Source: Dermatophagoides farinae (Eukaryota; Arthropoda; Arachnida; Sarcoptiformes; Pyroglyphidae). Taken from it: a DNA stretch of 64,000 nt. Numbering within the stretch: the stretch's first letter is position 1; the number at the start of each line of letters is the position of its first letter. The notes below the pieces were generated by a model. That model did not search any database and was not told the DNA's origin. It worked only from the letters and a program-made list of their open reading frames with translations. This document shows positions 4,020 to 62,843 of this stretch, one piece after another. The stretch covers positions 1,717,001 through 1,781,000 of the forward strand of contig NC_134684.1 in assembly GCF_024713945.1 (NCBI RefSeq). The letters are read 5' to 3'. Position numbers and translations under genes: made by a program.

Positions 4020-4275
4020 TTAGCTTGTTTTACTTGATTCCGATAGGCCAGGCGATGAAGCTGTTTTATAATTTTCATCAATTTCATCATCACTATCAAT
4101 GGCCATTGTACTATGATTGTATAGGCCTTGTGCCATCAAATGTAATGCTAATGGTCCACGACTAGGGCTAGATTTTTTTATTTTAGCCCGTTTATTTTGG
4201 AACCAAATTTTTATTTGTGATTCATTCAATTTTAATTCACGTGCCAAATCTTGACGTCGTTTTTCCGTTAAATAT
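4020..4275 (-). CDS. en: engrailed exon 3: homeodomain helices 2-3 and EH5
   Basis: The acceptor is TTTAAG before 4275. The exon completes the split AA|A lysine codon (homeodomain residue 24) and continues [14 protein letters not shown], then the recognition helix and EH5. It ends in an acidic, Ser-rich tail at TAA 4020-4022. Confidence 0.92.
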
Positions 4276-7200
4276 CTTAAATGGTCGAGAGAAAAAGAGA
4301 AAAATGAAAATTAGCATCACAAATCATAAAGTCAAATCAATTAATTAATTACTTGTTATCAATAAATTCTTGTTTTAATCTTGCCAATTGTTCCGCAGTG
4401 AATGCTGTTCTAGGCCTTTTTTCATCAACTTTTTTCTCTTTTTTCTTTAATTTTCGAGATCTTGGACCTAGATTTTGAGTGAATGAAAAAAAAATAAATA
4501 AAAACAAAAATTTAGAATGAATAAAAAAAAGTATTTATCACGTTTAATGACTTTCTTCTCTCTCTCTCTCTCTCTCTCCCGATCATTCAATGTTCGTTAA
4601 CACAGTGTCAAATGTGTAAATGTCAACTAAATTGCTAGTGTGTGTGTGTGTGTTTGTGTATGTAGATTAATAGAATGAATGAATATAAATTCTTCAAAAA
4701 TCAAATGAATGACAGTGATGAACGAGCTAATCTCTTGTTGATGATGTGTGGTATATAAACTGTGGAAAAAAAAGACCACCACCGATGTTGTGTTGGTATA
4801 CATTTATATACATCAAACTAGACACACACCAAAAAAAAAGAAAAAAAAAATTCACATTTCATTTATCACTTTACAATTCAAAATTGGCGAGAAAAATAAA
4901 ATGTCATCATCAACAACAACATCACACTCTTTTGGAACAAACAAACAAACAAAAAGAGAGAAACAAATGCTGTCCGTTTCAATCATCATCATTATCATTA
5001 TAAATGAACAAACCAAAAAAAAAAACCAAAACCCAAATACACACACCACTTACCCACACTCACACACACTGTGTGTGACAAGTTCAATTCTTTCTTTTTT
5101 TTTTTTTGGTTGTTCATTCTTCCTAATTACTTTTTAATGAGCTAGAAAAGCAATGAAAACAAAAAAAAAGACAGAGATGTGAAAGAAAGAAAGAAAGAAA
5201 AAAAAATTCAAACGACATTATCATCATCATCATCGTCATCAATGATGATGATGATGATCATACATGAGAATGATCTTTGACAATGACAAAATCTTTCTAT
5301 GGGTTTTTTTTGTGTGTGTATGTGTGTGGCATTTTATTGTCATCATCAAAAAACTTATATGTCCTGTCGGCATAATAATAATAATGTGATGAAGAGAATA
5401 GAATTTGATTGACTCAAAATCATGATGATGATGATGAACATTTAAACCATACACGTCATTATCACATTCTTTTTTCTTTTTTTTTCTTGGTTAATCATAA
5501 TTTTAGGTTGACAGTTTATGTGTTTTGTCAATTGTCATCATCATGGTGATGATGATTTCTGAAAAGAAAATATTTACATTTTACTGAGAAAATTAATCAT
5601 TTTTTATTATGTTTGTTTGTTTTGATCAAAATGATTCAATATTGTGTTTTTTTTCATGAAATTTGATTTGATTTTTAAATTTCATGGTCAGATTTTTATA
5701 ATGAAAAACTACAATCCATATGATTTATTCCATTCTTGCCCAAAATATGATGATGATGATGATGTATTTGATATGTTATTCACACACATACACAAATTGA
5801 ATTCATATGATTCGTTTGAATTCAATTAGATCGTTTTCTGGTGCGTGAGCATGTCAAACATCCATATATATTAAAATAAAATATTTCATGTGCCTGTGTG
5901 TATGTGTGTGTGGTACATGGTTGTTGGAACACCATGAACATGACATGAAAATTTACCATGTCCGTTCGTAACATATATATCCACACCAAATAACACTATT
6001 CGAACACACACACACAGAAAAAAAAAAATTTTTTTTTTATCGCACCAAAACCAGATACCAGAACGAAATAGAGAGACTAATAATGATCAAAATAGAGAGA
6101 GAGAGTGAGAAAGAATTTCAAGTGAATGAATGAATAAATGTGTGAGACAATCTATCTAGCCACGCACACACACACACAGGGGTTTTTAAATATCAATTTG
6201 TCCTGAAACATAGCATATGTGCATATATAGTCTATGTGTGTTTTGTATTCTGAAACTATATATACTTATATATACCGTTCACCATAAAATTATATCCACC
6301 CGGTAGCAATCATCAATTGTATGATGATGATGATGATGACGGTACAGGATGGGGTTTGGTCGATTATAACATTTTTTTTTGTTTTGTTTTTCTTGAAATA
6401 ATTTGGGTTTTGGAACAAAATAATAATAATAAATAAATAAATTACTCGATTATTGTTCCTTATTATGGAATGTTCCTAATGGAACCTTAAAGTGAATTTG
6501 CTGTCAACATAATATAATAAATATAATATTATTAAAATATTAATAATAAACTCTTGGAAAAACATGTGTAATAATAATCTAATAAAATAAATAGAATGAA
6601 AAAAAGGCTTATTGTCGTCATTAACACTGAACAGTGAACACTTATATAATGTTTGTAGCAGTAGTAATAAAATAAAGAGTAGTGTTATTGTTATTATTAG
6701 TTGAAGTGAATAATATCTCTTATCAACAATTTTCATTCATTTGTTTCTACTTCTAGTTTGTTTGTTGTTGTTGTTGTTGTTCAGAGATGTGCTATGCTAT
6801 ACTAATACAACAAATAAACCGGAGAGAATTCTATTCTATTCAACGACGATAATTGGTTAATTAAATTTCCGGTCGTTAAGCTTTGTTATTTACTTAGTTA
6901 GTTAGTTCGTTTTTTTTGTTTTCCTTTCAATATAATATCTCTATATATGATGATGATGATGATGTGCTTGTACCATTATACAATCTTGATTCTTTACATT
7001 TTCTTGTTGTACATTATGATTTTTTTTTTTTTTTTTTGGAAAAACTGAAAAAAGTTAGATAAAACCTGAACAAACAAACACCACTAGACTAATAAATAGT
7101 AGTAGTACAGTATATATAGTCTTTAATTGATAAATTATGGATCTACTGATATGACTGTCTGTTTGTTGTTATTAATTTGTTGTTGATTACAGTGAGACCT

Positions 7201-62375: not shown

Positions 62376-62843
62376 TTACGTTAATAATTGTTGATTAATA
62401 GATGGATCATGTCCATGATGATACCATGAATATTGTGGTATATAACTATTTGCCATTGCCGTTTTAGCTGGATTCATATCCCATGAGGTAATTGGTGGAC
62501 TCATTGCCGATGGTGGACTAACTGTACTCGATAATGATGATGATAAATTTGTCGAGCCTAATGATCCGGGTCCATTACCGGGTTGTTGTGATTGTTGTTG
62601 ACCACCACCAGGCGTTGATGATAACATTGATTGTGGTGGGCCAACACTTGGTGGTGAATTTGTTTCTGGTGTTTCTGGTGGTGTTTGTGGTGTTGTTGCC
62701 GTTGGTGGATGACCTAAACTTGAACCGGAACCAGCAGAACCATTTGTTGTTGTTGATGGTGGTACAACACCACCAACACCTGGTTGTGTTGATTTGAGCA
62801 TTTTTTTATATTTACTACGACGATTTTGGAACCATATTTTCAC
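62376..62843 (-). CDS. Dll: Distal-less homeobox gene, last coding exon (partial gene)
   Basis: The exon begins after a minus-strand acceptor (TATAG before 62843) exactly at homeodomain residue 45: [14 protein letters not shown]. This sequence, with RRSKYKK, is characteristic of arthropod Distal-less, and Dlx/Dll genes are known to have an intron at homeodomain position 44/45. Dll is the nuclear transcription factor for distal limb identity. The remaining tail of about 139 residues is Pro/Ser/Gly/Thr-rich. It ends with a SWDM motif and a C-terminal block [18 protein letters not shown] that resembles arthropod Dll C-termini. It stops at TAA 62376-62378. The rest of the homeodomain and the N-terminus are not between here and 64000, so they lie to the right of the window. 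A numerically longer frame starting with ATG inside the exon would be wrong. Confidence 0.9.
   Translation of the reverse strand: [155 protein letters not shown]

Follow-up and report, generated by a model that had tools for sequence, protein, structure and literature searches.

How do two homeobox genes of different families, the segment gene engrailed (en) and the limb gene Distal-less (Dll), come to lie as near neighbours in a mite genome: as the relic of an ancient linkage, or through a rearrangement in the mite lineage? The window (the whole 64,000-nucleotide stretch analysed, C8:1717001-1781000) belongs to a genome of 62.4 Mb in 22 contigs, with contigs C1 to C10 holding 94% of the bases and C8 itself measuring 4.43 Mb. 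Seven matches to PF02221 occur in it, and the allergen encoded by one of them (C1:893129) agrees with the PDB sequence of Der f 2 at 119 of 120 residues, its score to Der p 2 being lower; the genome is therefore that of Dermatophagoides farinae or of a species very close to it. A sequence-only reading of the window had placed the two genes on the same strand about 46 kb apart, and both points hold; each is encoded on the minus strand, and 45.7 kb separate the Dll stop codon from the en start codon.

The minus-strand gene at window positions 4020-16637 (from C8:1721020) is a member of the engrailed (En) family, running from a start codon at 16637 to a stop at 4020 in three exons. Exon 1 (15140..16637, minus) extends from the start codon to a donor after RPSSG and carries EH1 and EH2; exon 2 (4353..4467, minus) encodes EH3 together with the beginning of the homeodomain; exon 3 (4020..4275, minus) supplies the remaining homeodomain, EH5 (the Pfam signature Engrail_1_C_sig) and the stop. 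The two introns differ in size, one of 10.7 kb separating EH2 from EH3 and a short one interrupting the homeodomain. All five engrailed homology regions are present, with EH1, EH2 and EH3 readable in frame (these three motif names follow what we take to be their definitions). Exons 2 and 3, when joined, match the Pfam Homeodomain model at 4.3e-22 and Engrail_1_C_sig at 1.8e-13, and the top-scoring PDB chains are engrailed.

Distal-less had been read as lying in the window, which is correct for its last exon (62376..62843, minus strand; homeodomain residues 45 onward and the C-terminal tail) but not for its 5' exons, which lie past the window end. The gene spans C8:1779376-1789860, with upstream exons 4.5-9 kb beyond that end: homeodomain residues 1-44 are encoded at C8:1785456-1785587 (minus), and exon 1 occupies C8:1789108-1789860 (minus; boundary approximate). 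Against PDB chains the joined homeodomain scores 104 bits with DLX-5, compared with 67.5 for Msx-1, the best natural non-DLX chain; 6m3d (two engrailed domains in tandem) reaches 93.9, and was set aside as a comparator because that score sums two stretches. The homeodomain is of the Dlx type, and the gene is Distal-less. In a Pfam search (E 0.001) the joined exons, with the approximate exon 1 boundary marked X, matched homeodomain models alone; an N-terminal DLL Pfam domain occurs in the Distal-less (Dlx) family, and we did not take it as required.

The interval between the two genes holds a plus-strand ORF at 49367..50164 for MRPS26 (mitochondrial ribosome subunit S26; PF14943, 7.2e-37) and a plus-strand WD-repeat ORF at 50556..51767 for PWP1 (periodic tryptophan protein 1), whose best PDB chain, of the same name, scores 98 bits, with the runner-up at 70.6. 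That these are the sole genes between en and Dll, as had been proposed, is borne out by the ORF scan together with PF14943 and the PDB matches, a scan from which small multi-exon genes could escape; the longest further ORF is repeat-rich and has 184 aa. What remains is gene-poor: a 32.7 kb gap between en and MRPS26 (16710..49366), with no ORF of at least 200 aa, and a 10.6 kb gap between PWP1 and Dll (51768..62375). Nothing in Rfam matched at gathering thresholds when the window was scanned along with six flanking loci (124 kb), so that no curated RNA family accounts for the block. Self-comparison of the two gaps (E 1e-5) returned three short weak matches and a perfect 87-bp tandem duplication, at window 42618-42786 within the en-MRPS26 gap, and no other sign of duplicated noncoding DNA.

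Because C8 is an assembled contig (4.4 Mb), the proximity could in principle be the product of a misjoin. This we regard as exceedingly improbable, given that the 194 kb around the block (C8:1667001-1861000) contain no N, that the Dll exons on either side of the window end join into one complete Dlx homeodomain, and that MRPS26 is matched a single time in the whole genome.

Although the pair of homeobox neighbours is real, the sequence-only reading missed a third ANTP-class gene, of the type of the motor-neuron gene Mnx (extra-extra), at C8:1833101-1840301 (L019) on the plus strand, opposite to en and Dll; it starts 43 kb upstream of Dll and 52 kb past the window end. Its homeodomain exons (C8:1838728-1838859 and 1839531 onward, plus strand) are split at residue 44/45, and an upstream exon (ORF C8:1833101-1834150, plus strand) carries the motif FCIEALLAR. 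The Mnx (extra-extra) name rests on the homeodomain motif and the 44/45 split, both of which we take to be characteristic. Other Hox-like families are, by their motifs, presumably accounted for elsewhere: Gbx and Cdx on C5, Meox and Hox on C10, Evx on C2 and Gsx on C9. Among the best 60 of 129 PDB matches to this homeodomain there is no MNX chain and no natural family is prominent (GBX-1 80.9, PDX1 78.4 and GSX2 75.0 bits); a tandem engrailed chain tops the matches listed, at 103.3 bits. It is at most 61% identical to each of 12 other homeodomains compared from the same genome, and a literature text search with strings of its sequence found no paper. By motif and elimination, the third gene looks like a member of the Mnx family. 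En, Dlx and Mnx are each the sole member of their family recognised among the homeodomain matches, and a recent tandem duplication of the three genes was rejected, with homeodomain identities of 25/60 (En/Dll), 31/60 (En/Mnx-type) and 30/60 (Dll/Mnx-type).

An urbilaterian Super-Hox cluster is reportedly the subject of Butts et al. 2008. En and Dlx appear as Super-Hox families in the accessible text of PMC10726417 and PMC9976460, in agreement with the earlier suggestion that both belong to an ANTP set of ancient linkage, and Mnx is listed beside them. If the Mnx name is right, the en-Dll pair thus belongs to a three-gene Super-Hox fragment, En, Dlx and the Mnx-type gene lying within 119 kb of one another.

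A homeodomain search of the genome gave 92 matches, six of them on C8, four being exons in the en-Dll-Mnx stretch. The search can overlook exons that are split or short, and the last one of Dll, a short exon, was not among its matches. Dropping 12 second-exon or same-gene matches left 80 positions, and these include 15 homeobox groups with neighbours within 120 kb, hence close pairs are common. Mere chance has to be weighed where some 80 homeobox loci share a small genome. When loci were placed at random over 62.4 Mb (200,000 trials), the named En-Dlx pair fell within 69 kb in 0.0023 of trials, and three trials (1.5e-5; a rough figure) brought the named En-Dlx-Mnx triple within 118.5 kb. The named-family tests were picked after the triple was seen, and the fairer figure is therefore that for any three of nine Super-Hox loci (En, Dlx, Mnx, Gbx, Meox, Evx, Dbx, Abox, and Hox as one) within 118.5 kb, 0.00086 of trials. 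Several of the other close groups, moreover, are by motif known clusters, and we consider chance a very unlikely origin of the arrangement.

Among the 15 groups are what we take, by motif, to be Lbx-Tlx-NK3-Msx (116 kb), three PRD genes on C6 (15 kb), a series of Hox genes on C10 and a Meox-Abox pair. With the clusters so named, the NK core on C1 being one, the genome retains several homeobox clusters known from other animals. The Meox-like (L040, C10:2905185) and Abox-like (L082, C10:2933230) genes of that pair, again by motif, are separated by 28 kb of the contig that carries the Hox genes. The Hox genes themselves look rearranged: homeodomains that are by motif pb-like, lab-like and AbdB-like (L036, L062 and L037, at C10:2447541, 2432802 and 2687405) lie on the minus strand, and five other Hox-like matches at C10:2.12-2.30 Mb on the plus strand. 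Abox and Meox are also clustered in entelegyne spiders, according to PMC10726417.

The position of the remaining Super-Hox families counts against an old linkage. The Hox-like genes lie on C10 as opposed to C8, where no Hox gene was seen alongside En-Dlx-Mnx, and three further members are dispersed, Gbx to C5, Evx to C2 and Dbx to C1; much of the Super-Hox set has therefore come apart in this genome. The homeodomains read, from which split or short exons can escape, included none recognised as Rough, Nedx or Hhex. Such scattering, together with the opposite orientation of Mnx relative to en and Dll, would fit a history in which the three genes shared one ancestral chromosome and were brought near again by inversions in the mite lineage, their tightness being mite-specific and unconstrained. 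That history, however, requires genes to have come back together within 119 kb on two independent occasions, and En-Mnx linkage is frequent in spiders too (PMC10726417, section 7). The mite-specific rearrangement raised by the sequence-only reading is accordingly the weaker rival, which we regard as rather unlikely.

The relic that the same reading offered as its other possibility is the one we favour, since Mnx adjoins the En-Dlx pair and En is "often linked to Mnx" in spiders (section 7 of PMC10726417). A Super-Hox remnant, in the sense of at least two of these families physically linked, is present here, En and Dlx being identified by tool results and the Mnx-type gene by motif. En, Dlx and Mnx together probably preserve a piece of the Super-Hox linkage of ancient bilaterians, one that has since parted from the Hox genes. 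In a small genome that has kept several other known homeobox clusters, such a fragment would be expected to stay tight, which may explain a span of 119 kb. This view of the ancestry draws on linkage published for other species, often without distances in the source text.

Retention might in addition have a regulatory component, to which the distribution of coding sequence around the block is relevant. We counted coverage by ORFs of at least 200 aa, excluding low-entropy ORFs and using the flanks as the sole gene-density control. Coverage is 53% to the left of en (54 kb), 34% in the sequence preceding Mnx (12 kb) and 31% to the right of Mnx (21 kb); it falls to 0% in both the 32.7 kb en-MRPS26 gap and the 10.6 kb PWP1-Dll gap, and is 1.9% in the 31 kb upstream of Dll, a picture unchanged with two other cut-offs. 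Low-complexity DNA makes up 19-26% of the gaps versus 4-7% of the two outer flanks. The flanking ORFs are largely recognisable by Pfam: left of en, 9 of 13 gave good family matches (three gave none, and one fell below the curated cut-off), and right of Dll four of six matched. Across about 100 kb the four genes found are en, MRPS26, PWP1 and Dll. In L013 (1737-9496), neighbouring ORFs reach lengths of 873 aa, two of them near-identical at the start; an ORF at window 2-2944 resembles them, and the 873-aa copy matched no Pfam family.

The block is therefore a gene-poor stretch with bystander genes, the layout given in the available text of PMC5585340, where developmental genes sit in gene-poor regulatory domains containing bystanders. 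Gene poverty is to be expected around en and around Dll singly, and so is by itself no proof of coupling or of a constrained linkage. Its confinement between gene-dense flanks nevertheless suggests interlocked regulatory domains, in which long-range enhancers of en and Dll would fill the gene-poor 100 kb, MRPS26 and PWP1 would be bystanders caught among them, and chromosome breaks within the stretch would be selected against. Enhancers shared by en and Dll, a further proposal of the sequence-only reading, are compatible with this layout. The strongest form of the argument would make En-Dlx-Mnx an intact Super-Hox micro-block, with en and Dll regulatory elements interleaved across MRPS26-PWP1, the expression of the two genes coupled in limb-bearing segments and the order kept through mite history; taken as a whole, this is unlikely.

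Should the linkage be ancestral, the locus would offer a Super-Hox fragment that has no Hox genes and is compact enough for passive persistence to be tested against enhancer interlocking. The en-MRPS26-PWP1-Dll-Mnx order would, on the same condition, be usable as a rare genomic character in mite and arachnid phylogeny.

The sequence-only reading knew of no description of the pair, and the literature searched indeed describes no such exact arrangement, although the kind of linkage is already described. Section 7 of PMC10726417 states that many Super-Hox genes are still linked in a tick and in insects, and that one spider Dlx lies inside a Hox cluster. One snail scaffold carries Mnx, Gbx, En, Evx, Dlx and Hox (PMC8848322, in the text available), and section 13 of PMC4244043 describes centipede remnants, En-Btn and Exex-Nedx-Btn, on two scaffolds, En and Exex thus being on different ones. 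In the oyster, ANTP genes are mostly scattered with En1, En2 and Gbx as neighbours, and the accessible text of PMC5322547 contains no mention of Dlx or Mnx linkage. That of PMC9977156 likewise has no mention of En-Dlx linkage in Lepidoptera, and the main text of the sea spider paper PMC12220506, as available, contains none of Mnx, Dlx, exex, Super-Hox or Gbx. Linkage of Dlx to Hox is recorded for chordates, and no close Dlx-Hox linkage for annelids, in the accessible part of PMC3199776. Within the article text searched (exclusive of supplements and figures), no report places En beside Dlx in an arthropod, and a literature search combining dust mite, chromosome-level and Hox found none. The text seen of PMC13088399 cites Klementz et al. 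2025 (10.1016/j.ympev.2025.108380) for the homeobox clusters of another mite, Sarcoptes, and an earlier description of the en-Dll-Mnx block may be contained there.

Set against these systems, the mite block shares with the Super-Hox remnants described for other animals the linkage of some of En, Dlx and Mnx, insofar as the sources were accessible; relative to the Super-Hox cluster it has three non-Hox members within 119 kb, with no Hox gene seen on the same contig. The linkage of En to Mnx is common to mite and spiders, with the difference that Dlx lies in between in the mite. Genomic regulatory blocks, as presented in the available text of PMC5585340, resemble the mite locus in gene layout, combining developmental transcription factor genes, gene-poor DNA and unrelated genes inside, but are defined by conserved noncoding elements and Hi-C domains. 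The en/inv, Dlx1/2 and Dlx5/6 pairs (PMC3199776, in the part available) are also linked homeobox genes, for which enhancer sharing has been proposed or shown; those pairs are duplicates within one family, whereas En and Dlx belong to different families.
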